Origin: a virus
Strand: one strand, 5' to 3'
Length of the DNA: 25,833 nt
IMG/VR virus record: IMGVR_UViG_3300046002_002435
Span: 1-25,833 of that record
A program made the translations under genes and the position numbers. Of the stretch, positions 1,990 through 25,100 are shown one piece after another; the first letter of the stretch is position 1; each line of letters opens with the position of its first letter. The notes below the pieces were generated by a model. It saw only the letters and a program-made list of their open reading frames with translations. It was not told the DNA's origin and made no database searches.

Positions 1990-2459
1990 TCTATTTCCAT
2001 CCAAGTATGGTCGCCCATATATTTTACCTGCGCCTGATAGTCGTAGTCTTCCGGGGCACTACTGGACCAATCGTTGGGACCATTTTGTGTTAGCAGTGTA
2101 TGTTGCTTTCGCTTGTCCCATACTAGCCAATAGATATTGCCCATAACAGGTTGAAACTGATATACAGCACCATGCACTGAATCGGTAATTTCTAATCTGC
2201 GTTTAATGGCCTGTGCCTGTTTTTCCAACACACTGACCAGTTCTATAATTCTATCGTATTCTTGCTGGGCATATATCCTAGCATGATTGATCATGAGATC
2301 TTTTTGCTTGGTCACAGGCACTAGATCAAATTTAACCCCTCCAGCTTCAGTAGGATACTCTGACACATTCCTATTAAAGAACGGTATCATTATTCCACCC
2401 ACATCGGCATCAAAACTGTTTCTGCCTTTGGCTAAGTTTGATTTCTTTTCATCGGACAT
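1986..2459 (-). CDS. DUF2452-family protein, unknown function
   Basis: This is a 157-aa soluble protein. The middle is helical (DRIIELVSVLEKQAQAIKRR) and the C-terminal part reads GNIYWLVWDKR, then LLTQNGPNDWSSSAP and HTWMEIE. That arrangement (GNIYxLY..., WG/S.SxP, xxWxE) is what I recall of DUF2452, a family found in phages, bacteria and eukaryotes with no settled function. The ATG at 2459 overlaps the clamp-loader stop by one base (TGATG); a TTG one codon earlier is less likely. It sits directly downstream of the gp44-like gene, where T4 carries gp62, but it does not look like gp62, so I do not call it a clamp-loader subunit. Confidence 0.8.
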   Translation of the reverse strand: MSDEKKSNLAKGRNSFDADVGGIMIPFFNRNVSEYPTEAGGVKFDLVPVTKQKDLMINHARIYAQQEYDRIIELVSVLEKQAQAIKRRLEITDSVHGAVYQFQPVMGNIYWLVWDKRKQHTLLTQNGPNDWSSSAPEDYDYQAQVKYMGDHTWMEIE

Positions 2460-3373
2460 CAAAGTCTAGCTAGTTTTACTAATGTTGCTGCAAGATTAAT
2501 TTCAGCGTCAATGACAAAGGTGTTGTCTTTAAGACCATCTTTGATAATTAGGATAGCCTTACCTTGTTTTTCTTCTTCCCCAAATATTTCGATATTATTG
2601 TACAGCCAAGTATAAACTTCTACCATTTCTTCTGCACGAAGTTTTCCGCAGAGCAATTTTCTTGCTTCATTACATTTGCCAGCCTTGAATAGTGTAACCA
2701 TGTCAAACTTCCAATCTGCTTCTCCAGCATCGCCTTTGTTAGGCGCTTCTAGATTACCTTCGGTTGAGTTTTGTTGTACCAGTTGAATACACTTGCGGAG
2801 ATCCGGGTAAGCTACCTTTACATACATGTCTAGGGTATCGAGATCGAAGTCAACATTCTCTTCTACCAGGATTGTGGCAACTCGAGCGGTGAACTCTGTT
2901 TGGTCTGTGCGTTCAACATGGAATCCTTGACAGCGACTATGTATAGCAGGAATAATCCTGTTAGGATAGTTACAGGTTAGAATGAATCGACTTGTTGCGT
3001 GATACTCCTCCATGACCCCACGAAGTGCAGCCTGTGCGTTTGGACTCAGATAATCAGCCTCGTCAAGCAGTACAACTTTAAACGGTCCAAACGGAATCAT
3101 TTGTACAAAGTTTGTGATCTTGTCACGAACATCTTCAACACTGTTAGTACGGCTTGCATTGATTTCTAATACATCGTAATCTTCAATGCCGATTTCGTTA
3201 ATGAGAATTTTAGCCAGTGTTGTCTTACCAATGCCGGCGGCACCACTTAGCAACAAGTGAGGAATGCTTTTGTCTTTGATCCATGTGTTGATCTGTTTGC
3301 GCTGATGATCATCTCTAAACACATAACCGTCTACGGTCTTAGGACGATACTTTTCTACCCATAGTTCTTTCAT
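2459..3373 (-). CDS. 44: Sliding-clamp loader large subunit (T4 gp44-like, AAA+ ATPase)
   Basis: This 304-aa AAA+ ATPase would load the sliding clamp onto primer-template DNA in the phage replisome. It opens WVEKYRPKTVDGYV, typical of RFC/gp44 proteins. Walker A is GAAGIGKTT (44-52), Walker B VVLLDEAD (100-107), and the SRC motif carrying the trans-acting arginine finger is HSRCQGF (145-151). The C-terminal third is helical, as expected for the collar domain. Length is close to T4 gp44 (about 319 aa). An AGGA site lies upstream of the ATG. The partner small subunit gp62 and the clamp gp45 are not seen in this window, so the replication genes are dispersed relative to the T4 order. Confidence 0.95.
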   Translation of the reverse strand: MKELWVEKYRPKTVDGYVFRDDHQRKQINTWIKDKSIPHLLLSGAAGIGKTTLAKILINEIGIEDYDVLEINASRTNSVEDVRDKITNFVQMIPFGPFKVVLLDEADYLSPNAQAALRGVMEEYHATSRFILTCNYPNRIIPAIHSRCQGFHVERTDQTEFTARVATILVEENVDFDLDTLDMYVKVAYPDLRKCIQLVQQNSTEGNLEAPNKGDAGEADWKFDMVTLFKAGKCNEARKLLCGKLRAEEMVEVYTWLYNNIEIFGEEEKQGKAILIIKDGLKDNTFVIDAEINLAATLVKLARL

Positions 3374-4802: not shown

Positions 4803-5039
4803 TTATGATTTAAGAATTTTAATTATACGCTGTTGTTCCCTCTCTGTCAACCACTCTTGTTCTCCAGAAAATGTAGGACATCTTCTAAGTGCTTCGTTGA
4901 CTGCTTCTTGTATTTGATAGAGATCTTGTTTGCAGTACCAGCCGGTATACCCATCGTTGTGGGGACTGGTACATTCTCTAGCCAGTGAACCAATTTGAGA
5001 CACTACATCACCAGCATCCCAAGATTTTTTAAAACCCAT
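4803..5039 (-). CDS. Small protein, unknown function
   Basis: This 78-aa soluble protein starts MGFKKSWDAGDVVSQIG and carries a central CTSPHNDGYTGWYCKQDLYQ segment with two cysteines and clustered aromatics, ending in a basic helix (EREQQRIIKILKS). The helical C-terminus and lone cysteines do not match a zinc finger I can name. The ATG overlaps the stop of the Cpn10-like gene by one base (TAATG), with AAGG just upstream, so it is translationally coupled. Nine bases separate it from the dehydrogenase gene. Function not recognised. Confidence 0.75.
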   Translation of the reverse strand: MGFKKSWDAGDVVSQIGSLARECTSPHNDGYTGWYCKQDLYQIQEAVNEALRRCPTFSGEQEWLTEREQQRIIKILKS

Positions 5040-5437
5040 TACCTTGCACCAAAATCTTCTGGTCGAATAGTAGCTGTGTCTCCGTGGCCGTATTCTGTTC
5101 CAATGTAAAAGTCGTTGGGTCTTTCGTCAGCCACAGCAAGGATAGATTTAGTTTCTACCTTTTGAAAGTCTTTAACACCTTCTCCATCGTCGATGGTAAT
5201 TTTACGAGTCCATCGTCCATGCTCAATAAGAATCCACTGACCTTCTTGGATGTCGGTAACATTACTACCAACTTTGTAGACTTTGGCCCAACGAGGTTTG
5301 ATACCATGTGCCTTACCGTCATCACTCTTGATAACAATACCGCCCGAGGTTGTCATCTCTCCTAAGTCCATATCCACGACTAGAATATCGTCAGGCAATG
5401 CTCTTACTTTGATCTGTTTAGGTGCAAATGCAAACAT
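5039..5437 (-). CDS. 31: GroES/Cpn10-like cochaperonin (T4 gp31-type)
   Basis: This 132-aa protein resembles the GroES fold: IKVRALPDDILVVDMD at the N-terminus, then TTSGGIVIKSDDGKAHG (29-45), which looks like the GroEL-binding mobile loop with its hydrophobic GIVI tripeptide, then WAKVYKVGSNVTDIQEGQWILIEHG and a final strand KVETKSILAVAD. T4 gp31 and RB49 CocO replace host GroES during capsid-protein folding, so a similar role acting with host GroEL is likely. It is longer than GroES (about 97 aa) and gp31 (111 aa); the last 25 residues (ERPNDFYIGTEYGHGD onward) are extra. An AGAGG ribosome site precedes the ATG. The family call rests on the loop and strand pattern, not on a search. Confidence 0.8.
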   Translation of the reverse strand: MFAFAPKQIKVRALPDDILVVDMDLGEMTTSGGIVIKSDDGKAHGIKPRWAKVYKVGSNVTDIQEGQWILIEHGRWTRKITIDDGEGVKDFQKVETKSILAVADERPNDFYIGTEYGHGDTATIRPEDFGAR

Positions 5438-5446
5438 TAGTGCCTC

Positions 5447-5671
5447 TTATCGTCTACGAGCTGCAATTTCTTCTTGCATGGCACCCGGGTTCTTAGCATA
5501 GTAATCTGCTAGAACTTGTTCACGAGTGCGTTTAATTACACCACCTGGGCCTAATTCGTCACCTCGAGCATTTACTTTGGCATTGCCAACTGCCGGAACA
5601 TTTTCGTGAATCATGTTGAGTTTTTCTAGATCAACTTCTCTTCCACGCATACTTGTGTGCATTTTACCCAT
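5447..5671 (-). CDS. Small basic protein, unknown function
   Basis: This 74-aa protein begins MGKMHTSMRGREVDLEKL and has the segment AVGNAKVNARGDELGPGG followed by a helical, charged tail ending in RRR. The glycine-rich turn and conserved look suggest a phage-specific protein, but I cannot name a family. Its ATG overlaps the end of the Pol III alpha-like fragment by 8 bp, with GGAG upstream, and a 9-bp gap separates it from the Cpn10-like gene. Position next to a head-assembly chaperone is suggestive only. Confidence 0.78.
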   Translation of the reverse strand: MGKMHTSMRGREVDLEKLNMIHENVPAVGNAKVNARGDELGPGGVIKRTREQVLADYYAKNPGAMQEEIAARRR

Positions 5672-6143
5672 TTTGTTCTCCTTTAAAGAATTCGTCTATT
5701 GGTAAAGCGTATTTAACGCTGTCTATCTTATGTATCCCTATTAGATAGAGTACATAGCTGGAAACGGAACTGCCCCGTCCTACACCCCAGACTATATTGT
5801 TTTTACGCAGTGTATCTACAACATACTTCATAGTTTTAAGTACAGGAATCATATCATGTTTGGCAAATAATCTAAGTTCCTCGACTACTCGTTCTCGTAT
5901 CTCTGGAGTCGGACATCTTTGATACAGCCAATCTAAGATATCCATGGTTTTATACTCTTGAGGTATAAACCAATTGTTCTTGTCTATAGATAATTTAGTC
6001 ACAGGATAGTCTAGCCGTTCTTGATCTACTCTTTGTAGATATTGTACTATGTCGTTGGGATTGGCAACACAGTTTTCCAGTATTTCTGGACCGTGTTGCA
6101 TTACACCTTTGATAAGATTTTCTAATGTGTTTTCAATCAACAT
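5664..6143 (-). CDS. Stand-alone fragment of DNA polymerase III alpha (C-family) palm region
   Basis: This 159-aa protein has a helical N-terminus and a C-terminal segment (117-152) reading IVWGVGRGSSVSSYVLYLIG, then IHKIDSVKYALPIDEFF. That closely follows bacterial DnaE, where a GRGS motif, a hydrophobic helix, an IT..DP motif and F[ED]RFL lie in the polymerase palm. DnaE is over 1,100 aa; here there is no PHP domain, no fingers, and the catalytic PD.D.DF aspartates that come next in DnaE are absent because the protein stops. It is therefore unlikely to be a polymerase on its own. Neighbours overlap both ends by 8-11 bp, so it is a deliberate gene and not a frameshifted remnant. Role unknown; it might bind a nucleotide or a replisome partner. 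Confidence 0.75.
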   Translation of the reverse strand: MLIENTLENLIKGVMQHGPEILENCVANPNDIVQYLQRVDQERLDYPVTKLSIDKNNWFIPQEYKTMDILDWLYQRCPTPEIRERVVEELRLFAKHDMIPVLKTMKYVVDTLRKNNIVWGVGRGSSVSSYVLYLIGIHKIDSVKYALPIDEFFKGEQNG

Positions 6144-6366: not shown

Positions 6367-6953
6367 TAGCTGAATTGTCCTAGGTAATTCATAAAAATGT
6401 TAGTAGAATTGTGGCGCCAAACTTCTATGATGATTGGTGCAGAATTAGAACTTACAGAAACAACACCAGAAGGCGGAAAGTCTGTGTTGCGTCTTAGGTT
6501 AGTACCTGCAGTGGTAATAAATGTTAAGTTTCTAGTAGTACCATCGCCGTACAGCTCTAGAGTCATTCGGCCGCAGCCAATTGGACCACTGGCAGAAGAA
6601 TTTTCAGGAAAGTTTTGAAAATCAATATTCATGTTAGCAGAAAATCGAAAAACTTGATATCCACCATTTTCGTAGTCAACAGTTAACAAAGTTGTTGGCA
6701 AAGCAATAATGCCACCATCGAACCTTTGATCCATTACATCTCTAAACACCGCTCGACTTATTTCATTGTCTTCAAAATCGTTGTCCAGATTTGTTTTTGC
6801 AGTATTGGCCTGCAGGGCTGTAATTTCTTCTTGACCTGCTTGTAGACTGGTTTTGATAGTGTCAAAGTTGTCTCTGAAGGTCTGTGTATCGTTGTCCTCT
6901 CCTGCTACAGGAAAGTTCTCGTTAATGCTCAAATAGTTAATATTGCTGGTCAC
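6366..6953 (-). CDS. Short tail-fibre/adhesin-like structural protein
   Basis: This 195-aa protein starts with GTG (GTGA overlap with the 926-aa gene stop) behind a GGAG site. The N-terminus has SINENFPVAGEDNDTQTFRD, then NFDTIKTSLQ, a diverged form of the docking motif shared by its neighbours (xDxxxxFRxNFxxIxxxL). A short coiled-coil-like helix (AGQEEITALQANTAKTN) follows, then a beta-rich C-terminal part with alternating hydrophobics (FRFSANMNIDFQNFP, LELYGDGTTRNLTFIT). It lacks signal peptide or membrane segment. The arrangement of N-terminal anchor, coiled coil and beta tip fits a trimeric fibre or fibre-tip protein. Not matched to any named T4 gene. Confidence 0.8.
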   Translation of the reverse strand: MTSNINYLSINENFPVAGEDNDTQTFRDNFDTIKTSLQAGQEEITALQANTAKTNLDNDFEDNEISRAVFRDVMDQRFDGGIIALPTTLLTVDYENGGYQVFRFSANMNIDFQNFPENSSASGPIGCGRMTLELYGDGTTRNLTFITTAGTNLRRNTDFPPSGVVSVSSNSAPIIIEVWRHNSTNIFMNYLGQFS

Positions 6954-9730
6954 GGTAGTTTTTCTCCACGTTGTGCGAACGCTAGGTATTTATCCTGGAA
7001 CTCACCGCCTATAACATCTATTAGGTAGCGATCTATAGTGAAGTCCATTGTTTTGAAATCAAAGCCCTTGTTTTTAATGCGGGTAAGGACATTAGTTGAG
7101 TAGCCTGGTTTTAGATAGCAGAGTACAACACTCTTGACCCAACCTGGTTCTACATAAGTATCGGGCTGTATACTGCGCATCCATAGTGGAAGAAATTCTC
7201 TATCTCGTTCGCCTATGCCTTTTATACGCTTACGCATATTCTTGTAACTATTTGGAAATATCCGTTGATGATCACTGTCACTGACTAGAGGAATATCGCT
7301 ATCTATTTTAATAGCATCGTAGCTGACCAATATCTTGCTGTTTATTCTATCACTTAGTTGTACAGTTTGACTGATGCTTTTTCCGTCTTTTTCTAATTCG
7401 TCTACAATTTCTACATAAACAATTTCGTATACAGGAATTTGTGTTACTGGATCCTTGGCCACTGCACTCTTAACATCTCCAAATCTCACCTGTTTGTTGT
7501 AATGATTTCGGCCCATTGCCTGAATGAAAAATTCTGCATTACGGCTTTCAATGCCTGCGTACATGAGCATTTTTAATTCTGGTTGAATTCCGAAATTAGG
7601 ATCCCCGTATCTGTAGACTTCACTTTCTCTAAAGACATCGTTGTCTGTGATAAAATTATACCAGGTAAGCCGTTTGTCTTTGCTTTGGAATGCCTTGGCA
7701 TATAGATTAGAAAATGTTACATTAGTCTTGGTAGCAACAGTTAGAAAAAACGATTTGATATTTTCTGCGACATTATTAGCATCTCTGGCCTTTACATCAA
7801 AGGCAAATGTTCTATCAAAACTAGTGGTACCGACATCCCAACTTTCGCTAAACAGTCTAGATCTAGTTGAGCTATCCTCTGCCGAGTCTGTACGCTCGTA
7901 AAAGCGAGTCAATCCCGGCCCCGCCGTATCAGCAAACTGCTTTACCTTGCCCTGTATCAGACCGTTTGAGATTAATTCCAATCCTGGAGGTAAGTGACCA
8001 CTAACTAATTCATAAATAGTTCTACCGCCGTAGAGTTTAGTTTCGGCTAACAGTGTTTTGTCGCTGGCAATATTGGGAGGGATATAGCCTAGATCACTGT
8101 CAGTGATCCATTCGATAGCACTTTCAATTTCTCCAATGATATCTACACTGAATGTTTTCTTAACTGTAGATACTCCTCGATCCCAATAGACTCCATCCTG
8201 AGGAGCTTTAAATCTGTTGGCTTCGATACAAACCCAAATAAAGTTATCATATCGAACAGCATCACCTATAACATAGTCTGCGCTGGAGTTCCAGTCTCCG
8301 CGAAGTGTATAGTTTTGTTCAAACAGTACTGGTGGGAAACTCACAGCTTCTAAAGTGAATTTATAATTTCTAGTAACAGCGGCCTGGTAAGGAACACGCC
8401 CTGCAACTTCTCCAGTCAGTGTATCTATAGTTGTACCAGGGGGAAATTCGCTAACTGTTTCTGGTTCTATAACAGTCCATGCCGCCGGATATGCTGCCTT
8501 AAAAGTTATGGCTGTTGTAGAGATATCTCTATTCCAAAAGACCGTTGTTAGACTAGGAGCTCTATTCAGATTGGCAGTTTGACAAACCCAGGTTTGATCA
8601 CCGTATATTATTGCATCGCCAACAACATAGCTTATTGAGGAATCCCATTCGTCTTTCAGTGTGTATTTGAATTCAGGTAATGCTCCACTTAGTTCGTAAT
8701 ACCCATCAGTAATAGTTTCCCCAGTTGACTTTAATTGATAAGTGCCGGGATTGGTGGTCATCTTGAAGTAGATTATTGTGCCTTCAAGACTTGGCGGATC
8801 ATAGACATCTAAAAATATAGTTACATAATTGTTAGCCCTAATACGACCAAGATTGCTTTCGGTAATCCAGATAGGTTTACGAGTACCGTCCCCGTCTGCT
8901 TGAAATAAGTTGGTATCAACTTGAACAACATTGTTATCTGCTTTGAGAAACTCTTCAGTGACTACCCATATACGAAACAGTCTTCTAACTTCATGGACGC
9001 CATCAGATGCTGCCACTATAAAAGTATAGAACCTACTTAGTCGTCTTGGAGCTTTGGTATCTTCTTTGTAGTCGAAACTTTGTAAATCATAGATAAAACT
9101 ATCAAAGCCGGTGGTTTCTGCTGCGGCAAGGTCCAAAGGCATAGTATCAAATGTACCCGAATCATAAGCACCTGTTCGACTGTCGTTGTATTCTAGAGCG
9201 AATACTGGATCTGTAAACCCATTGATCCTGCCATCTCTGGTCAATGATAGTCCTGGAGGCATTTCCCCACCGTTGGGTATTTGATAATATTCTATGGCAT
9301 CCCCAGCGATAATGTCCGGGTCTCGGACTTCTAGCTGAAAGTTAACATAACTGTTGTCTAACACATAGTAGGCATTGTTTAAGCCAACATTCAAGAAACC
9401 TTCTTGTGTTACCCATTGAGGAGCATCGTCGCCGTCTATGCTGATGCCAAATGTTCGATCTTCAATGTCGACTCCGTCGCTAGCACGAATAACAAATCTG
9501 TTTGTGGTAAATTTTCTTACTTCTGTGGGACTGCCTTTAATAGCAGAACTGTAGACGGTACTATCGCTGGTAACAGTTTGACTGAGTCTAAGACCACGAG
9601 GCAGTCTTCCGGATAGCAAAGTGAAAGTAACCGGACCTGCATTTGAGCTGGCTTCTATTGGAATGTCTAGGGTTACACGCTCAACAACTGTGCCTAGACT
9701 TCCTGCAGGAGTAATCCAAGATATTGTCAT
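6950..9730 (-). CDS. Large tail structural protein with Ig-like and chitin-binding-like modules
   Basis: This 926-aa protein is modular. He_PIG-type putative Ig repeats are seen around 36-50 (LLSGRLPRGLRLS), 148-173 (MPPGLSLTRDGRINGF), 427-449 (FPPGTTIDTLTGEVAG) and 573-597 (LPPGLELISNGLIQGK). Phrases like WITDSDLGYI and WITESNLGRI recur at module starts. Between them lie two modules (361-401 and 480-520) of the form W-x5-Y-V-x-G-D-A-x-x-Y-x-x-x-x-W-V-C-x12-W, resembling CBM5/12 chitin-binding domains. The last 250 residues, with no repeats and a basic stretch KNMRKRIKGIGERDREF, look like a separate assembly domain. It lacks the N-terminal docking motif of its neighbours. There is no clear ribosome site and only a 6-bp gap after the upstream gene, so reinitiation is likely. 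Probably a baseplate or fibre component binding host glycans. Confidence 0.85.
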   Translation of the reverse strand: MTISWITPAGSLGTVVERVTLDIPIEASSNAGPVTFTLLSGRLPRGLRLSQTVTSDSTVYSSAIKGSPTEVRKFTTNRFVIRASDGVDIEDRTFGISIDGDDAPQWVTQEGFLNVGLNNAYYVLDNSYVNFQLEVRDPDIIAGDAIEYYQIPNGGEMPPGLSLTRDGRINGFTDPVFALEYNDSRTGAYDSGTFDTMPLDLAAAETTGFDSFIYDLQSFDYKEDTKAPRRLSRFYTFIVAASDGVHEVRRLFRIWVVTEEFLKADNNVVQVDTNLFQADGDGTRKPIWITESNLGRIRANNYVTIFLDVYDPPSLEGTIIYFKMTTNPGTYQLKSTGETITDGYYELSGALPEFKYTLKDEWDSSISYVVGDAIIYGDQTWVCQTANLNRAPSLTTVFWNRDISTTAITFKAAYPAAWTVIEPETVSEFPPGTTIDTLTGEVAGRVPYQAAVTRNYKFTLEAVSFPPVLFEQNYTLRGDWNSSADYVIGDAVRYDNFIWVCIEANRFKAPQDGVYWDRGVSTVKKTFSVDIIGEIESAIEWITDSDLGYIPPNIASDKTLLAETKLYGGRTIYELVSGHLPPGLELISNGLIQGKVKQFADTAGPGLTRFYERTDSAEDSSTRSRLFSESWDVGTTSFDRTFAFDVKARDANNVAENIKSFFLTVATKTNVTFSNLYAKAFQSKDKRLTWYNFITDNDVFRESEVYRYGDPNFGIQPELKMLMYAGIESRNAEFFIQAMGRNHYNKQVRFGDVKSAVAKDPVTQIPVYEIVYVEIVDELEKDGKSISQTVQLSDRINSKILVSYDAIKIDSDIPLVSDSDHQRIFPNSYKNMRKRIKGIGERDREFLPLWMRSIQPDTYVEPGWVKSVVLCYLKPGYSTNVLTRIKNKGFDFKTMDFTIDRYLIDVIGGEFQDKYLAFAQRGEKLP
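8092..8108. repeat. 17-bp perfect inverted repeat (8+1+8)
   Basis: GATCACTG at 8092-8099, a single T, then CAGTGATC at 8101-8108, inside the 926-aa gene where it encodes part of WITDSDLG. It may be a chance result of codon use; no function is assigned. Confidence 0.5.
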
Positions 9731-10330: not shown

Positions 10331-10340
10331 GTATATTTAC
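10331..10340 (-). promoter_or_regulatory. Candidate phage promoter core (GTAAATATAC)
   Basis: On the minus strand GTAAATATAC spans the stop codon of the HAD-like gene and the 21-bp gap before the 192-aa fibre gene (start at 10315). The TAAATA core matches those in the other intergenic gaps. Start-site spacing of about 15-20 nt to the ATG is plausible for a late promoter. Sequence match only. Confidence 0.3.
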
Positions 10341-10855
10341 CGTTCGTTGAACTCTAAATCTTGTGCGGCCAATAACTCTAGTATCTGACCTTGCACTGCT
10401 GGATCTTTGATACCTTGATCCACATGTTTAGCCCAGGCAAAGTTGGGTAACCAGGTCCCCATATACAAATCATCTACTGCACACCAGTGAGTGATTTCAG
10501 GATGCTGATCCAGCCAAGTGCGTATTTCACCAGCCCGTTGTTCGTGATATGTTGGTGCCCCGGGCAACCAGTCAGTATATGCCAAGGGCATTTTTTCTAT
10601 GCCCTGTTCCTGATAAAACTCACACATTCCACTCAGTGTGGTTTCTCGTTTCCAATCACTAGAGATCACTATCTCAGCACCTGTTTGCTGTATAATATCA
10701 TTTAACACAGCCACCGCATCGGGATCAAAGTCGCTGAAAAAGGTTATGCCCGTGTCAGCAAATTCATCCGATGTGGGCATACTGAACTCAGTTCTTGTAA
10801 CAGGATTAGGGCTCAGGCACAGCACTCCGTAATGATCCAAGAACAAAACTTTCAT
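10337..10855 (-). CDS. HAD-like hydrolase-fold protein with an altered first motif
   Basis: This 172-aa protein has the HAD-fold order: motif I FLDHYGVL (5-12), then FDPDAVAVLNDIIQQTGAEI and motif II VISSDWKR (63-70), and an acidic motif IV AVDDLY (126-131). This order resembles the HAD domain seen in RNA-repair proteins (HAD_SAK group) and the phosphatase half of T4 polynucleotide kinase. The nucleophile Asp7 is present, but the second Asp (general acid/base, D+2) is Tyr9 here, so normal phosphatase activity is doubtful. It lies between two fibre genes, its ATG overlapping the upstream stop (ATGA). Role unknown; possibilities are a binding protein, a phosphonatase-like variant, or an end-processing enzyme that needs no D+2 acid. 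Confidence 0.8.
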   Translation of the reverse strand: MKVLFLDHYGVLCLSPNPVTRTEFSMPTSDEFADTGITFFSDFDPDAVAVLNDIIQQTGAEIVISSDWKRETTLSGMCEFYQEQGIEKMPLAYTDWLPGAPTYHEQRAGEIRTWLDQHPEITHWCAVDDLYMGTWLPNFAWAKHVDQGIKDPAVQGQILELLAAQDLEFNER

Positions 10856-14023: not shown

Positions 14024-15763
14024 TTATGTTAGTCCTGTTCCATTGATATACCATGCTGTGGCTGACACTTTGATAGCAGTGGCAGTACCGTATGCGGCTA
14101 AGGTTCTTGAACCTGTTCCACCTGTGCCTACCAAGTACATGATATCTGTTGTGATAGCAATAGTAACTGTGCCAGCACTTGGTCCAGCAACAAATGTAAT
14201 AGCAGTTCCTATGGGATAAGGTACTGCACTGTTTGCCGGAATCGTCATTGTCTGCCCTGCTGTATTCACATAAATGTGTTTGCCAGCATCACCTATAGCC
14301 AATGTGGCAGTGGTAGTAGTAGCACTCTGCGGCAAGCCCATGTAACCTACACTTGCGGCAGTGCTAGATGTAGTAGCGGTAGCAGCAGGACCAGTAAATG
14401 AAGCAGCTTCAATACCAATGTTGGCTGTCCACAGACCTGTGGAGTTTACATAATTAAATGTCTTGTCTGTGGTGCCTTTGAGTGTGATACCGCCACCGTC
14501 GGCAGTGACATCTGTGGGCGATGCCGTTGATCCCAGTTCTATATTTTTGTCATCTACTGTGAGTGTGACAGAGTTTATGGTAGTAGTGGTGCCGTTTACA
14601 ATTAAATTACCACTTACCGTTAGTTCATTTTCTACAGTAACATCTGAATTAAATGTTGTTGCTGTGATAACAGTTATACCGCTAGAGTCAGTGGTAGAGA
14701 TTGTGCCACCTGTTAATCGAACAACACCTCCAGTAACTGTTGTACCACTGACAGTGTTATCAATGCCGTTGATAATTGCGGTTGAATCATCTCCAAACAC
14801 ACTGCCAATTATATCAATTCTATTATTAAAATTAAGAGTAACAGCCCCAGTGGCTGCACTTACTGTAAGACCGGCGCCAACGGTTAAACTCAACACACCT
14901 GTGTTTTCTAAAGTTATTCGATTAGTAAATGCTCCCGAGGCCACAGTGTTGGTAATGTTTATACCGGCGCCTTCTATGAGTGTTATGGTGTCAGCTGTAC
15001 TTCGAGCAGTTAGGTTTGGTTCACCTGCTGTGGCAAATACACGATAGGCATTGCCTGCTGGCAGTGTATTAGTAACAATAACCCTGCCAGTCGCTGGGTC
15101 TCTAGCGCCCACGCTAATACCATTACCTGCGTCAACATCAACAATACCTTCATTAACAATAGTTACTGCACCTGTAGCAGTATTTCTACTCATTCCAAGT
15201 CCAGCAGTAATTGCAGTAACACCGGTATTGTTAACTGTGACAGCGCCAGTAGCACCACTAATTGCCATAGCAGTTCCTGCAACTAAACTAGTGACTCCGG
15301 TATTTTCTATAATAATAGCATTAGAACTAGAGTTGGTAGTAATACCAATGCCGGTGTTTTCTTGAAAGTCCAACACATCATTAAAATCTTCTGCAACAAT
15401 AGAAGTGTCGCCATTCACTGAAAATTCTTTAAAGAATGTCTTATTGGGATCAATGATTAAATTCCCGCCAACTGTAGTACCACTTGGCAAATTAACAGTT
15501 AATCCTTGATTGGTAATGGCTGCACCCCCAATCATTAGTGTATCACTGAGATACAAACTGGCCCAGCGTTTATTAGGTGCACCTAGATCGTAAGTATCGT
15601 TTTGTGCAGGAGTTAAGCTGCTTTCTAGTGAATCAAATTCAATACCTGCTCCTCCTACACTTGCATAGAGTTCTGTGAAGTTGGCGTTTATTTTGGTAAA
15701 TGCATCTTCTACGGTGCTCCATACAATAGGAGCCTTGCCGGATGTAATAGTTTGTTTTGCCAT
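14024..15763 (-). CDS. Tail-fibre-like structural protein with internal beta repeats
   Basis: This 579-aa protein begins MAKQTITSGKAPIVWSTVED, then AFTKINANFTELYASVG, again the docking motif. Residues about 150-310 carry repeats such as NTGVTSLVAGTAMAISGATG, NTGVTAITAGLGMSRNTATG and NTGVLSLTVGAGLTVSAATG, each followed by AVTVxN or AVTLxF. Residues 380-450 hold LTVSGNLIVNGTTTTINSVT, then LTVDDKNIELGS and FNYVNSTGLWTANIGI, a module common in phage fibres. The end (475-579) is a Gly/Thr/Ala-rich beta domain with YPIGTAITFVAGPSAGTVTI, a likely tip. There is no signal peptide or enzymatic motif. A GGGAG ribosome site precedes the ATG, which overlaps the giant gene stop by one base (TAATG); a 1-bp gap separates its stop from the next gene. 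Confidence 0.87.
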   Translation of the reverse strand: MAKQTITSGKAPIVWSTVEDAFTKINANFTELYASVGGAGIEFDSLESSLTPAQNDTYDLGAPNKRWASLYLSDTLMIGGAAITNQGLTVNLPSGTTVGGNLIIDPNKTFFKEFSVNGDTSIVAEDFNDVLDFQENTGIGITTNSSSNAIIIENTGVTSLVAGTAMAISGATGAVTVNNTGVTAITAGLGMSRNTATGAVTIVNEGIVDVDAGNGISVGARDPATGRVIVTNTLPAGNAYRVFATAGEPNLTARSTADTITLIEGAGINITNTVASGAFTNRITLENTGVLSLTVGAGLTVSAATGAVTLNFNNRIDIIGSVFGDDSTAIINGIDNTVSGTTVTGGVVRLTGGTISTTDSSGITVITATTFNSDVTVENELTVSGNLIVNGTTTTINSVTLTVDDKNIELGSTASPTDVTADGGGITLKGTTDKTFNYVNSTGLWTANIGIEAASFTGPAATATTSSTAASVGYMGLPQSATTTTATLAIGDAGKHIYVNTAGQTMTIPANSAVPYPIGTAITFVAGPSAGTVTIAITTDIMYLVGTGGTGSRTLAAYGTATAIKVSATAWYINGTGLT

Positions 15764-16160
15764 TATGCTCTCCCTACCGCTACTTCAATTGTGCCTATGT
15801 GATCTGAGTCATAGTCCTCAAGGGCTTTTCCTATCATAGATCCTACCTTAATGTCGCCAACAGCAGCAACCGCTACTCCTGGAATTCCACTGGTAACCAA
15901 TATGTTACCCTTTTTAATCTTGCCCGCAACCCGACAAGGAACACGACCAGCTAGTGCAACATATGGATGTGTGTTGTCCTCGCCTGCTTCGCAGTTCATT
16001 CTAAACGCAGGGTTAGCAGAAATAACACCTGCTACCGCAGTGTCCATCTTTGTATTGGTTGTTGTAATTTCTTTGTCACCACCAAACACTACAACAGTAC
16101 CTACAGGATACTCTCGATCTGCAGCATAGCGTTCTGCCAAGTCAGCATATCGTGCCGCTG
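15763..16160 (-). other. C-terminal fibre domain resembling an intramolecular chaperone/peptidase
   Basis: The last about 130 codons of the giant fibre hold RYADLAERYAADREYPVGTV, VVFGGDKEIT, VAGVISANPAFRMN and a compact C-terminal beta part (GRVPCRVAGKIKKGNILVTS, GSMIGKALEDYDS). The order A-E-x-Y, P-G-x-V-V, V-x-G-V-[IV]-S-x-N-P matches what I recall of Peptidase_G2-type C-terminal domains that trimerise the fibre and then cut themselves off. Catalytic residues cannot be named from sequence alone. Confidence 0.55.
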
Positions 16161-19100
16161 TAGCAGTACCAGTCATAACACCTGCACTAAAGTTGCCGCT
16201 GGCATCACGGAATACAATTGTACTACCTGTGTTAGCACTGGTAGCATTTGATGTAACAGTAAATGTAGACCCCTCGCCAGTAGCACTACCACTTAGACCA
16301 TTACCAGAAACTGCACCAGTTCCAACATAGTCACCTGTGGTATCTGTACCTAGTGCTACTGAGTTAGCAGCAATAGTTGTAGCAAAGCTAAGATTACCAC
16401 TACCGTCAAATGCTGCCGATACCCCAGTTACATCACCTGTCAATGTAATTGTTCTACCGGAGGCCCAGGCAGTTGCAGTAGTTGCATTACCACTTAGAGC
16501 AGCACTAATTGTTCCCGCACTAAAATTACCACTTGAATCACGAGCAACAATTGTACTGACTGTGTTTAAATTAGTTGCATTACTTGTAATAGTATAGGCT
16601 GTACCGTCAGCGGCATTTGGTGCAGTACAACTTAGTCCGGTTCCGGTTACAGCAACAGTGGTTGCATATTGACCAGTTGTATCTGTACCTAGTACTGTGG
16701 CATCAGCGCTGATTGTTGTAGTAATAGATATGTCGCCGCCGCCGTTAACACCGCTTACTGTTCCAGTTACATCACCAGTCAAGGTAATTGTTCTACTGGT
16801 AGCCCAAGTAGTTGCAGTACTTGCATTACCACTTAGAGCGGCAGTAATTGTTCCAGCACTGAAGTTGCCGCTGGAATCTCTTAGAACAATTGTGTTGATG
16901 GTATTGGCATTAGTAGCAGTGGTTGTTGCAGAGTTTGCTTGACTCTGAATAGTTGTAGCAACAAATGTGCTGCCTGTGTCAACGGTCCATGCACCGGTTA
17001 CTAATCCAGCAGTTCCACTAGCACCAGTATTTAATGTATCTGTATATAGTGTACCTGTTCGAGCATCGATGTATCCAGTACCTAGAGTTAAGTTGCTGGT
17101 AGTAGCCATACTCCAGTTACCTGTGATAACGCCAGCTGTCCCAGCAGCACCTGTTGTCAGCGTATCTGTATAGAATGTTCCTGGACGCATGTCTAGGTAA
17201 CCAGTGCCCCAAGTAATGTTACTTGTGGTCAACATCGACCAGTCACCTTCTATAGTTCCTGTAGTTGCCGCAGCTCCTGTAGTAATCGCTCTTGTTGTAA
17301 GAGTGGTTCCACCGGTATTAATACTTGATCCTACTGCAACACTCCACTGTCCTGTGATAACACCAGCTGTGGCTGTAGCACCTGTAGTCAATGTTGTTGA
17401 CTGTAGAGTTCCGTTGCTGAAATCAATCTTACTTGCAGATCCTAAACTCCAGTTACCAGTCAATGTACCTGTGGTGATAGTTGCACCTGTGGTCAGTGTC
17501 CTTGACTTGATGGTACCTGTTGCAAAATCAATTTCACTGCCGGTCTGTCCAATAATTTTACTTGTGGTGTTCAAACTCCAAGCACCAGTAATACTACCAG
17601 CAGTTCCTACTGCACCTGTGGTTAGTGTTATAGACTGTAAAGTACCTGCACTGGCGTTGATAGTACCGGTACCCAATGTTAGGTTACTGGTAGTCGCCAT
17701 TGACCAATTACCAGTTAATGTACCTGCGGTGCTAGCACCGCCTGTGGTTACATCGGGGGTAATAATCGAACTGACCTGTATTGGAGCAAATGCACTGTCG
17801 TCATTTAAACGGAATCTGTGACTGTTATTTCTATAACTAGAAACCTTATCACTAGATACGCTTCCATCGCCAATACTAACACCTAGTACACCGCTAAAGC
17901 CGTATAAGTTAATAGAGCCCCCAGTGGCAGTTACCGCGGTATCGGCCAGTTTCTTGTTAGCACTGGCGCTGGTTCCTACATAGAATGCTCTTGACGCATA
18001 AGAATCTCTGACACCAATGTCACCGCTACCGTCTCTAATAACCAATTTGTTATTGGCGCTTACATCAGTAAATCCAGTATAGGCACTAACAGCTTCAACA
18101 ACACCATAGTCGGTATCTTGGCTGCTGGTAGTAGCACCAGTCCTGCGCAAGAAACCTAGACTGCTGTATTGACTCTTCTTGATTGAGCCACCTTCGTCGA
18201 CCACGGTACTGAATTCCACTGCGCTGACATCACCGGTACCAGCAGCACTGCGTCCCAAAACAGTGTCAGTGGCAATCTGTGCAAATTTACCTAGTTCAAT
18301 GCCGTTAGTTTTTAGTTCAACCCATCCGCTAGTTAGTGTAAATTCAGCTGAGTTAAAACTAGCAAGTCCCCTATCTGCTTGTGTAATGCCTGCGGCTGCT
18401 GCTCTAGTGCTGGCAGTAACCATTGACAACTTGCTCTGCGCAATGGCCGCAGCACTATTGATATTCGCGTTGTCGATGATATCAGGTTTAATATAAATGT
18501 TATACTCGTTTAGAGTAGAATCGATACCTGTAGTAACAGCATTGTCGTTAGGTACAGTTAGATCACCTGCAATCTTTACAGCACGACCTTCGTTGCCCGC
18601 TCCAGTGAACGCAATGGTCATTCCGGCATCCACAGCTTGACCTGGGAAGCTATTGGCAATAATAGCATCAAAACTAATACTGCGTCGATTTACAGCGTCA
18701 GTTGGATCAACAGGATCGGCTACATTTCTAATTCTAAAGCCGTTCATGTTCATACTGTTCTTCATGGCCAACTGACCGCTCAGCGCCATGAAGCCACCAG
18801 TGGTTGGAGGAATCATTCTGGCAGCGTCAATATTGTCGCCACCGTGACTCACGCCCAATCTGCGATCTAGATAACCACGAGTTGCATTTTCTGTCGGTAC
18901 AGTATCAGTAGCGTTGTCGCTAAATGTTGTATCTGTTGAGAACTCAGCAATTGGAACACCACGCTTGAATCCTAGACCGCTTAAGTTACTCAATGCCAAA
19001 CTAGCAGAGAATGTTACAGTACCAGTACCTTGGTCAACTCTAAAGAACGGACCAACGGAGAAGTTACCAAATTGGTCAGTGGTTACAAAGAAACAACGGC

Positions 19101-22100
19101 CTTCGCCTCGCTCAACTACCTGACTGTATTCTACTTCGCCTGTGGTATCTAACAATGTCTCTGTAGCAATACGCACAGGTGGTCCGTAGATCTCGCTTGG
19201 ATAGTTAGTGTCGGCATAGCTACCAGTACCAATTTCTAGTAAGTCGTGTCCAGTAACACGAGTCAATGAAATACGAATGGTCAGTGTGCCTTGACTGTCT
19301 TCTGTTCTAGCCTGTACACCGGCAAACAGCGTAATCGGACTGTCGTAGGCAATTACGCTGTCTTGTAATGGAGTGTCAAGATAAATCTCTCCATAGGTCT
19401 CTCCGGTTATATCAGCATCGTTATATTGTGTAATAACATAATTATAACCCTTGAATGTAAATCTACATCCAACAATACGAGCAGCATCAATAGGTCCTAG
19501 TTCTACAACGGATAGTACGGAGTCTCCAACTCTACCCAAGACCTTGCCTACAGCAAATATTCCTGTACCATCATCACTAAATTCAATAACAGGCCCACCA
19601 GAATAGCTAGAAAGTTTAAAGGTATTGGCGGCAGAATCTCGAACAATATATTGTCTACTAGAAAACACTCCTGCTGGCATTAGCCCACTGGTTTCAAATC
19701 TAATGACATCGCCGTCGGCAAATCCGTGACTGTTTTTGTCGATTCTGTCATTGGTATGGTCAAATGTACAACGAGCTGAGTCGACTACAGCAGTACCTGT
19801 TGTTTCTACGGCAGCGCCGGTTGCGGTAAACACAGTACCAACGGTTTCAGCACCTGCACCTACTGTAGCCCAAGTTGTGGTTCCCACGGTTACAATATAA
19901 TATGTGTAACCACTAACCAATTCAATAGCGTCTACAACTAGTCTAGGACCACCTGGATTACTAGGAGCAGCTACAGGAACAAACTCTTGTCTTGGCCATA
20001 GTGTGACCTCGGCATAGTTGTAACCGTCTTTCAGTGCAGTAGCCGCAAGTTTTGTAGCTTCAAAATAATGACTACCTGATCCTGCACTGGTAGTTTCTAA
20101 TGGCTGGCCGTTCTTGGATGATGAAATTCTAAAAGTTGAATCAGTAAAACCGTCGTCAAGAACATAATAGGTGTCCCCAGCTGAAATGCCACCCGGCAAA
20201 GTTCCACTGGTTGCAAATTTTATAGCATATCCCGGTTTCTGACCATGAGCTGGTTTAGCAGTTGGACGAGCTGTACCGTCACCAGTTCCTATGCCTGTGG
20301 CAATGAATACAACTCCAATGGTACTAGACGATGCTCCGATAGTACCCCAAGGAGTTGTGCCCACAACTGTGATGGTATATTCTCTACCAACAACAAACAG
20401 TCCAGCAGCAACAGATGCTGGATTAGCAACAGTTCTAACCAAAGTAGCAACACCTGTGACAAATTCAACAACCACTGACTCAAATGCAGGAGGAAAGTAA
20501 TCTGCAAATTCTAGAACACGATATAGTTGACTGTCGAATAATTCGTTGATTTTCAAAGCAGTTGATGGACGAACTGCAACTCCGACTACACCACCTGTAA
20601 GAACAACTTCGTTATTAGTTCTTAGTGTGACTCTAGTACCATTCGGTACTGCTACTACCAATCCGTCTGTGTCACTGTTTAAGTTCAGACGATACAGCTT
20701 CTGTCCAGTTGAGTCTGCAGGGAAATCACTTTCAGACACTGCGCTAACAACTGGATATCTTACTATTCCTGTGATACCACCGTGATCAATTTCAACTTCA
20801 CTTTGATCTCTTGGAGGATAATCATAGTCAGTTACATAGATAATAAAGCCATTAACATCATTATCGTAACTTCCTAGATCATTATATACAATAGCACCCT
20901 GTGTAAGTTCGTAATACAGGTCAACTGGAGTTGGAACTTCTAACGGGTCTGATCCTTCAGCAGCCAAAGCATACACACCGTGAGCTGACGATCCACCTAC
21001 GCCTCGAATCTGTCCGCCTGTTACAGAATAATAAGAAGTGTAGCAATAGTATGTAAACATACTCACACATTCTGTCAATCCACCATTGGCTGCAATCAGC
21101 CCGTAGCCCATGTCGTTGATCTGTGTAAAGTCGTTTGACAACATTGATCTGTTACCAGGCATCAATACTTCGTAGACATTGGCATTGGCATCGACAAATT
21201 CTATTACATTAGTCTGTATGGTTACTTTTGCACTTTCTAATGCAGTACGAGCATTTGTTCGATTAGTATCATAATCATAACCGCCCAATGCTGCTGTTAG
21301 TTTTGGTAATACTTCAGCAGGCAATGATGCCACTGCGGCTGCAAGTTTTGCCTCTTCTGCCCCGCCAGTAACACGATAGGTGTTTAGTGCGGTAATGATG
21401 ATAGACATTAGTGTTTCGATTTCGCCGGCTACGGCACCGTCACTTGCAGAAGCTGTTACCTGACTTGCGGTTGCGCCATAGGTAGGAGACACTGTGGTAT
21501 TCACAATAACCTGTTTAGCTGCATTTTTAACTGTGGTTAGAGCATTTTCACAGGCTTCTGGCTGAGTAGACAACAGTTGAATAACCAATGCATCGCCGAC
21601 ACCGTTGAAGTAGGCAAAGGCAGCTTTGCGAGTTTCACTGTTACCACCATAGACTAGGTCATAGATTAAACTATCTAGTATGCGCTCAATGTCCTTCTGA
21701 CTATCCGGCGCAGAAAATGTCAAGGACGGATAAGTAGTGGTAATATAACCAGTTCCTACCTGTTTTAAAAATTCTGTGTTGGCTACCAAAAGAATTTTAG
21801 CATTAGCAATATTACTAGCTAATCCTGTTGGATTAGTGATACTCAATGTTGGAGCCGCTGTACTGCCTCGTCTAATAATATTTCTTAGGTTGAGTTTACT
21901 TTGATCAACTACAGCAAGACTAGGATCGTATTCTGATGATACAGCAATTGCTTCTAATGTAGCAGTTGCACGATCGTGCGCTCGGTCAATGGCCCGGATA
22001 GTTAAATCTAGTTGATCGTTGATGACTATTTCGGCATTGGCTTCTCTATATGATTGGGCAGCTCTTCTGCTGTGATAGTTAGTTCCTAGGACAATATCGT

Positions 22101-25100
22101 AGCCTAGGCCTGTGATGATTAATCCTACATCTCTTCGACATATTTCTTTTTCATAGGTAAAAACATCAAATGGCCACGGAGTAACTTCGTCTAGAACAAA
22201 TGTTGCAGTACTACCGTTGACTCCGACTCCGTATTCAAAATCTCTAACATAGTTGATGCGATAAACTGTATCCTGAACAATAAATGAAGCAGGCAGTTGC
22301 GGGAATCTTTTTAGTTGATCAACTACCAGTCTTGTGGTACTGATCTTGTTGGTAATTCTAAATTTAATATTGCCTGCAAATCCGTCAACAAACATACCAC
22401 CACTAAATGTGTGTCGTCCTGTACTCTTTGAAAATACAGCACCTTCTTGTGCATACGGAGATTTAGCAAGAATCTGTCCCTCGGGATCTAGTACAAGACC
22501 AAATCCTCCACCGCCTTGTATTGTCATAGCACGAATAATTGTAGCATCATTCATCAAGAACACATCTATTTGATCGTTGTCTAATGGGGTATTATAAGAT
22601 TCACTAGAAGTGTCGATGATATCAACAATGACATCAGTTAGTCTACCGATAACACCGCCGTTGGGCACACAGTCTCCTGAGCTGGCAGTATATGCGCCAA
22701 ACAATGTACTAACAACGTTTGCTGATCTTGCAGAGTTGGTATATATATTAAACTGTGTACTATTTGCTACTGTTATCCAATAGCTGTTTCCGTTTAATTC
22801 AGTTAGACCGGTCATGTTGCGGAAAGTTACAATTTCTCCACTAGCCAACCCGTGTGCAGGAGATGTTGTAATTGTGGTTTCATTACCTCTGGTTACTGCG
22901 GATACAGTAACCGGGGTGCCGCCGGCCCCAGTTTCTGCGGTATAAGCAGTGTCAATTACCTGCGGCTCAACATAGGTAATCAGGGTGCCTGTAATTGGAG
23001 CAAGGTATTCTGAGTTTACAATTTCGATATTACGGATTACAGCCTGTGCAACAGTTTCTAATCTGCGAATAGCTGCAATGGTTTGATCTAACTGTTCGGT
23101 AACAGCCAGTACCGCGCTGGCATTGTTTGCATCTTTGTATTTTAGTGCTGCCGAAATAGTTCTTGGAGCACTGCCATACCTAAGGTCAAACACCATAGCA
23201 TCAATTAATAGTCCTACATCTCGTTTGCAGATGTCGCTGTTATATTCAAAATCAACAAACGGAGCAACTTCTTCAACTATCTGTTTGTTAATCCAGGCAA
23301 TAACTTCTTCTTGTATAAATTGTTTATTGAGAGCTAATAAGTCTGCGGCCGATCTATAGAAACCCTTGTTATCAATGTTTGCTTCGGGATAAACTGGCTC
23401 ACCTGCATTGCCTAGGTAGTGATAGCCAAATGTGTCTTCTCTAGCAGCATTGAGGTCGTTTCTTGAAGTATTTAAACCATCAATAACTCGATCTCGTTTA
23501 AAATATTGAAATGCCCAAGGGCTTGAGCTCATGCCTTTCTTAGGGCGAATAATTGTTCGGCGGAACTCATCGCCAATAACAGCTACGTTTTGTGAAACCT
23601 TTAGCGGTAAGTTTTCATAATAGATACCAGTTTCAACAAAAACTGCTACCTGTCGCGTGTTAGCTACATCGCCATAGGAAATTGCCTCCCCGTTGACAAA
23701 TGTACCGTATTTGATGTCAACATCAAACAGTTCGTTGCCAGTAGTATCCAATTCACCTTGGTGCGAAAGAATTTGTGCCAATGCTCCAGAAGTCTCGCCC
23801 AATAAGTAAAGGCCTTCGCGAATGTCACGGCCTCTACGAGCCACAGCACTGTCAGTGGTTACATCTCCGGTAAAATCAGTTCTTTGTCCCCCAGTATAGA
23901 TTTCAAATCTAGGTAATGTTACCACAAGGTCGGGAAATTCTGTAAACTTGCTACCCTGATCTGTAATGGTAATACCAGCAATCGCCCCACCAACAATGTC
24001 AGCAAAACCAAAACCTGCAACAGCACCGGTGTCCAATATATCAGGAGTTACGCGAACTGACACTAGACTATAGCCTGAACCTGCAGAAGTAATAACGGCA
24101 GTGCTAACCTTGTAGGTAATGGCAAATTCTGCACTAGTTCCAAATTCACTTCCGTTAGCAACTCCAACTTCGATGTTTCCGCTAACATTTGTTACAGGTA
24201 AAGTTAGGTCAAATTTACCACCAGTTAATAACTGAAATGTAAGAATCGGTCCGTTCGGAGTACCGGGTTCGCTGTTTACTGTGAGAATTCTCACAGTAGC
24301 AGCATCAATTGTGGCACCACCTACCTTATTAATTCTTAAAACTTCATTTACCTTAAAGTTGTAACCACCTGCTACTAATCTAATCGTATCAATAGTTAGA
24401 GTAACACGACCCGCAAATCCTACGCCATTATCCGGGGATACTGCAATATCAGTCAGTGTACAATTGCTGATAACGCCAGTATCTGGATTGGTCCATGTTA
24501 GTACCTTACGATATGGTCCGATTTCAGGAGGTGATGATTTAATAATTTCTTCAGCTTTCTTTAGAGCAGCTTCTAGCGTTCTATAGGCAAATGGTAGAGC
24601 ACGACCTTGTGTGCTGGCCCCAACTCCAACTCTTTCGTCTGAGCCAGAGGTAGCAACATATAGATTAGCCACTGATGCAAAACCTGCATTGTCGACATAG
24701 TTTTTTGTGGCAGCAATTAAACCGCTGTAGGTAACATCATCTTCTGGTCTTGGATTTCTAGATAAAATCAACGGTCCGGTCATGGTACCAAACGCACTAT
24801 TGGCCACATTGCCAGCTGCTGGATCTAGTGCATTAACACCTCCTAGGGCAATTTTGGTATCTGCATAGCCTTTATTAGCTGCCTCATCTGAAGTTATAGG
24901 AGTGGCTAGCGACTGGATACGATATTGAGTGCTACCTGATTGTGCCTGTAGATTTCCTCCTAAACTAGGAGAAGGATCGTTCGCTACTGAAGATCTTGTG
25001 TTGGTAATTTGAATTGCATTTTCATCGGTAAAATTCAAACTGATACCGGTTCCTGCAGTCAGTTGCTTGAATATCAATCCCGATTCGCTGGGATTAACAG

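Follow-up and report, generated by a model that had tools for sequence, protein, structure and literature searches.

In the C family of DNA polymerases, the aspartates D401, D403 and D555 (E. coli numbering) are described as absolutely conserved, and a further residue, D405, as separating DnaE from PolC (PMC3919608). Proteins of this family have been recorded in jumbo phages by several papers: CBB_328, a 172-aa Pol III alpha of phage CBB, was remarked to be truncated (PMC5259590), Atu_ph07 is listed with an alpha subunit, gp316, plus an epsilon subunit (PMC6102473), and an overview of jumbo phages has a PHP-bearing alpha in another subgroup (PMC7824862). The RaK2 paper names a B-family enzyme and, in the available portion of its text, does not mention polymerase III (PMC3622015). 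A recent survey of bacterial polymerases dropped fragments of <200 residues (PMC12926913), and this size class comprises the first protein described below and many homologues of the second. The profile families phrog_11127 (171 aa) and phrog_11778 (197 aa), both labelled 'DNA polymerase', are the two families to which these proteins belong; they are catalogued apart, and the record of phage Phosso names both 'DnaE-like DNA polymerase III alpha'. Our literature searches, which covered few subscription journals or preprints, found no paper that pairs these two as the halves of one active site. In this work we analysed a viral DNA fragment of 25,833 nucleotides (the window) that encodes a member of phrog_11127, called piece 1; the second gene is called piece 2.

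A palm fragment that stops before the catalytic motif

The window gene has an open frame of 159 codons that overlaps both the next and the previous gene (Table 1). It matches Pfam PF07733 (DNA_pol3_alpha) over residues 70–156 with an E-value of 4.7e-13, which passes the cut-off, and PHROG 11127 with an E-value of 8e-42; NCBIfam TIGR00594, a full-length model, matches at 3.2e-8, under its own cut-off. Comparison of the piece-1 profile with DnaE by hhalign aligned it with E. coli residues 274–395 (E 2.7e-7). This alignment begins past the PHP domain, for which hmmscan of the window protein gave no match. After GRGSS the protein continues as ...VSSYVLYLIGI...PIDEFFKGEQNG-stop; PDxDxDF, sought after the GRGSS block, is absent, and as the frame stops before this motif the counterparts of D401, D403 and D555 are absent from piece 1 alone.

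Relatives were collected with tblastn. The query from the window (E 0.01) found them in 43 phage records and the 121Q relative as query (E 1e-3) in 84 (60 of them listed), the latter tally taking in Streptomyces and Bacillus phages; 199 IMG/VR stretches also carried relatives and 80 of these were kept. In each of 90 relatives the frame ends at an EFFK or EFLK block or a few residues off. Among 53 non-redundant sequences, residues G120, G122, R123, G124, S125, V127 and S129 are invariant and S126 is present in 98%, the single exception being GRGSC in phage Atu_ph07. All 53 have E or D in place of E. coli R390, a residue that does not vary among 14 DnaE sequences, and an invariant tryptophan, W58, lies outside the DnaE motifs. 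Named phages with piece 1 in a similar setting include Phosso, MIJ3, GAP32, 121Q, SCTP-2, Atu_ph07, Vibrio phage 2.275.O, XaC1, RaK2 and PA5oct. The initial annotation, made from the letters of the window, had described an intact, overlapping 159-aa gene that keeps GRGSS and stops ahead of the catalytic motif, and had proposed a profile comparison with DnaE and a survey of GRGSS among phage homologues as checks; both came out in its favour, and piece 1 is genuine: a conserved part of the Pol III alpha palm, devoid of the catalytic aspartates, encoded on the minus strand.

Table 1. Features of the window (neighbour counts at piece-1 loci come from iterated jackhmmer searches over stop-to-stop frames)
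Feature	Position	Strand	Evidence and remarks
T4 gp44-like sliding-clamp loader	2459..3373	minus	phrog_168 3.5e-76; 56/59 loci with room
Short NDP-sugar dehydrogenase, 263 aa	4002..4793	minus	PF00984 and PF03721; lies within the replication neighbourhood
GroES-like protein (Cpn10 / phrog_931)	5039..5437	minus	Pfam 1.8e-4, PHROG 1.3e-16; 81/81 loci with room
phrog_14844 gene, 74 aa	5447..5671	minus	Downstream of piece 1, 8-nt overlap; 87/87 loci with room
Piece 1, 159-aa DnaE-type (C-family) N-terminal palm fragment	5664..6143	minus	PF07733, phrog_11127, predicted-structure match
GRGSS motif, piece-1 residues 122–126 (E. coli G361–G365)	5766..5780	minus	G122, R123, G124 and S125 invariant in 53/53 sequences
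phrog_15348 gene, 77 aa	6133..6366	minus	Upstream of piece 1, 11-nt overlap; 88/89 loci with room
926-aa protein, probably adhesin or tail fibre	6950..9730	minus	Putative Ig and CBM_5_12 modules
SAK RNA-repair type HAD domain	10337..10855	minus	PF18143, 4.6e-19; between tail-like genes
3182-aa protein	15763..25311	minus	Many repeated stretches; more than one third of the window

A second gene with the catalytic residues

Piece 1 had been taken for a lone polymerase piece, and a second gene in the same phages had been missed. A search of whole records for polymerase families found one clear PF07733 gene per record, which is piece 1, and weak matches to the finger-domain family PF17657, under the cut-off, in 6 of 13 records, all of them in frames of about 200 aa. 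These frames are piece 2, a stand-alone gene of about 190–215 aa in the same jumbo phages. They begin at or near (P/T)DIDID, which is followed by HNxGVYL-, KxDFLN-, RPxK- and FKKxHA-like blocks, and they match PHROG 11778 with E-values down to 4.7e-108; phrog_405, the family of full-length phage Pol III, also matches them (down to 7.2e-12). Residues D3, D5, D7, H34, K66, D68, R135, P136, K138, F164, K165 and H168 are the same in all 60 sequences. In the alignment with E. coli DnaE, PDIDIDF falls at 400–406 and FxKSH at 756–760; D3, D5 and D68 are the counterparts of D401, D403 and D555, that of K553 is present as well, and D7 corresponds to D405, a residue that marks DnaE as against PolC, in all 60 sequences. 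Invariant H83, W94 and W154 are outside the DnaE motifs. The sequence likeness of piece 2 to bacterial DnaE is weak: a PDB profile search gave an E-value of 0.0011 and, when rerun at a higher E-value limit, no further match, Pfam matches are under the cut-off, and hhalign places the middle of the protein on DnaE 529–642 with an E-value of 5.4e-4 and a probability of only 30%. No fused single-gene form was found among 98 piece-2 ORFs (190–233 aa from stop to stop), and no locus holds both pieces. Piece 2 is absent from the 25.8-kb window; we infer from the relatives that the window phage itself has it.

Foldseek searches with AlphaFold2 models (pLDDT 82.6 for piece 1 and 88.8 for piece 2) put Pol III alpha or PolC on top for both, with no PDB E-value reaching 1e-3. 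In a comparison with 43 pre-selected chains, residues 52–159 of the piece-1 model were placed on E. coli Pol III alpha 274–398, with Z 8.1–8.9. Residues 1–190 of the piece-2 model were placed on 401–784 with Z 6.4–8.7 for the E. coli chains, and its 15 C-family rows have Z 5.6–8.9, the next row, an unrelated one, being at 2.8. The two ranges on Pol III alpha abut without overlap. A Z near 8 is middling by itself, and the weight of these comparisons comes from the ranking and from the abutting borders. For each piece the predicted model is closest to C-family chains, for piece 2 by a wide margin over unrelated ones and for piece 1 among the 43 chains compared, which points to a C-family palm and fingers fold.

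It could be asked whether a split intein joins the two halves again as in cyanobacterial DnaE, since DnaE is a known split-intein host. A split intein has also been reported in the B-family polymerase of MIJ3, a phage of the same group (PMC6892783). However, there is no room for intein parts, as the end of piece 1 lies within a few residues of the last block conserved in it, and the start of piece 2 is close to PDIDIDF. The ORF ends contradict this explanation, intein halves at the junction were found on neither side, and we give it practically no credit.

Taken together, the two pieces amount to a core of some 350 aa without the PHP, thumb, central fingers, clamp-binding and OB parts. The thumb is mostly gone, 27 residues of piece 2 (D7–H34) standing for 106 in DnaE (D405–H511), and so are the central fingers, with 28 residues (P136–F164) for 116 (P640–F756); both chains end by about DnaE residue 784. 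In DnaE the central fingers block spans about residues 643–750 (E. coli) and includes R709 and R710, which have a role in nucleotide binding. The HhH family PF14579 was found in 0 of 12 records, and 11 of 14 control genomes were positive. A third gene that might supply the missing finger and thumb parts was not found with any of three families: PF17657 matches span only profile positions 28–91, PF07733 matches comprise the two pieces and one false match in GAP32, in a cytidine-deaminase-like frame, and PF14579 gave none. Because the thumb and the central fingers are missing and R390 is replaced by E or D, ordinary processive DNA synthesis is doubtful.

Co-inheritance, selection and neighbourhoods of the two genes

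Piece 2 gave 63 matches in phage records, and among the 60 records listed for each piece 59 are shared. The one record listed for piece 1 only, RAS14, has piece 2 when searched by profile, and the one listed for piece 2 only, W12-3, is an unverified entry of 109 kb. A profile built from six piece-2 proteins was searched in a first set of 27 records with piece 1; it detected piece 2 in 12, namely ten of ten reference phages and two other records, G001 (353 kb) and G003 (270 kb), and the 15 records without it are fragments of 62–199 kb. In a second set of 12 records, picked for carrying piece 2 (RAS14 for piece 1), piece 1 was found in 5, the misses being six records of 110–199 kb and one of 280 kb. 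In the two sets combined, both pieces are present in 16 of the 17 examined records of at least 250 kb. Two records, W12-3 and the 280-kb one, G019, count against the pairing in that they show piece 2 and no piece 1. The B-family gene of G019 lies at 260.6 kb, and piece 1 lies about 20–26 kb from the B-family gene, on the same side, in G001, G018 and G020, so that the piece 1 of G019 may fall past the end of the contig. The two genes are 15–224 kb apart in 11 records, and the distance in G001 is about 176 kb. Distances between piece-1 proteins and between piece-2 proteins are correlated over 16 genomes (r 0.80, a value reached by none of 5000 permutations), a correlation that vertical descent alone could yield.

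Both pieces are under purifying selection: dN/dS is 0.06–0.25 for piece 1 between the window and nine relatives, and 0.09–0.14 for piece 2 in three of four pairs, the fourth being undefined. Selection and conservation across relatives rule out an isolated scrap or pseudogene, and the initial annotation's view of piece 1 as a scrap on its own gives way to that of one half of a pair, the catalytic half being a co-inherited second gene that begins where piece 1 ends. The large reduction in size and the scattered parts might suggest the remains of a dnaE gene taken up from a host and now in decay, yet decay is contradicted by the dN/dS values, by the uniform lengths and borders of 90 piece-1 and 98 piece-2 loci, and by the retention of the pieces in Pseudomonas, Agrobacterium, Vibrio and enterobacterial phages, and we regard this explanation as extremely unlikely.

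Piece 1 is regularly accompanied by a clamp-loader gene (Table 1), and the neighbours of piece 2 include primase and helicase genes, with a DNA helicase and a primase in G001. In RaK2, Phosso and PA5oct, piece 2 is followed by a small convergent gene, a structural protein, a primase and a helicase; the small convergent gene is phrog_11637 in G001. The position of piece 1 near a clamp loader and of piece 2 near primase and helicase suggests work at the replication fork. As for the main polymerase, it had been remarked that a T4-like phage normally uses a B-family enzyme. This holds for the relatives, where PF00136 passed the cut-off in every record searched (13 of 13, then 7 of 7); in the window fragment no B-family gene was seen among the annotated ORFs. 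The B-family polymerase of G001 retains the SLYPS and YGDTDS motifs, and because these motifs of the main polymerase are intact the pair is probably auxiliary. MIJ3, PA5oct and Atu_ph07 each have their B-family polymerase divided among two or more frames. RNase_T (DnaQ-type exonuclease) is above the cut-off in 8 of 12 records, and a link with such an exonuclease was set aside since it is not universal. Elsewhere in the window, a Hint/intein-like C-terminus had been suspected by eye in a 1056-aa tail-like protein, for which Pfam gave no support.

A proposed two-subunit enzyme and its known counterparts

Computation establishes the homology of both pieces, their complementary borders, the invariance of the catalytic residues, the co-occurrence and the purifying selection, and on these grounds we consider it likely that piece 1 and piece 2 constitute a two-subunit, strongly reduced DnaE-type nucleotidyltransferase of the phage replisome. 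Piece 1 would contribute the GRGS block and the rest of the palm's first half, and piece 2 would give PDxDxDF, H511, K553-x-D555 and short finger remnants (E. coli numbering); the two chains would physically assemble in trans to form one two-metal active site of the C family, about 350 residues in all, and would catalyse with it. Alternatively, both pieces could be catalytically idle: they might have a structural or regulatory function in the phage replisome, or might be a decoy to which host Pol III, the clamp or nucleotides bind. Piece 1 alone, without any catalytic aspartate, would fit such a function, and an inhibitor of host replication had been proposed from it in the initial annotation. 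However, invariant catalytic residues in piece 2 would be needless for a pure scaffold or decoy, and each piece stops where the other starts. An active two-chain enzyme is favoured over a dead decoy or inhibitor because a separate catalytic half is co-inherited, with no change at its catalytic residues in any of the 60 sequences, and we hold idle pieces to be quite improbable.

The cellular role of the pair is the weakest step, and what we propose for it is tentative. With the thumb gone and the fingers reduced, we expect synthesis to be short and distributive, or the substrate to have changed; the pair would probably work alongside the B-family replicase in a non-processive manner, adding a single nucleotide or a few at a time, and candidate roles are short gap filling, primer extension and lesion bypass. 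The active site might also form in an enzyme that is no longer a DNA polymerase, with a protein, a small molecule or the end of an RNA as the acceptor of the nucleotide; other palm-like nucleotidyltransferases carry out transfers of this kind. The loss of the thumb and central fingers, which hold the DNA and the incoming nucleotide, together with invariant catalytic residues, would be in keeping with such a change, and so would the invariant W58 of piece 1 and H83, W94 and W154 of piece 2. Against this stand the replication neighbourhoods of both genes, with a clamp loader for one and primase plus helicase for the other, and the retention of the finger remnants RP and FxKxH, and we think this alternative rather unlikely. 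In its widest form, the reading of the pair as a two-subunit C-family enzyme would have a thumb-less enzyme encoded by unlinked genes and kept intact through the T4-like jumbo lineage, perhaps as a nucleotidyltransferase with a new substrate and not a DNA copier. Its active site would come into being only on the meeting of the two gene products, and few descendants of a replicative polymerase would be smaller; we offer this form as a possibility, with some doubt. In place of the puzzling 'truncated polymerase' noted for a jumbo phage, the proposal puts a defined two-subunit enzyme that can be tested. Were the pair active, it would show how little of a C-family polymerase suffices for nucleotidyl transfer, and T4-like jumbo phages would gain a second such enzyme beside their B-family replicase.

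Compared with bacterial DnaE (E. coli), the pair shares GRGS, D401/D403/D405, H511, K553-x-D555, RP, FxKxHA and the predicted folds; it differs in being encoded by two genes, in its length of about 350 residues instead of 1160, in the change of R390 to E or D, and in the absence of PHP, thumb, central fingers, clamp-binding and OB parts. Among other phage C-family proteins (phrog_405, phrog_13169, phrog_7513, gp339 of Bacillus phage G and that of Mycobacterium phage Fowlmouth), some are also short of full length, but their chains, of 461–1190 aa, are longer than the pieces. Cyanobacterial split-intein DnaE is likewise encoded by two genes; unlike it, the phage pair has no intein parts, and the phage split lies immediately before the catalytic aspartates.
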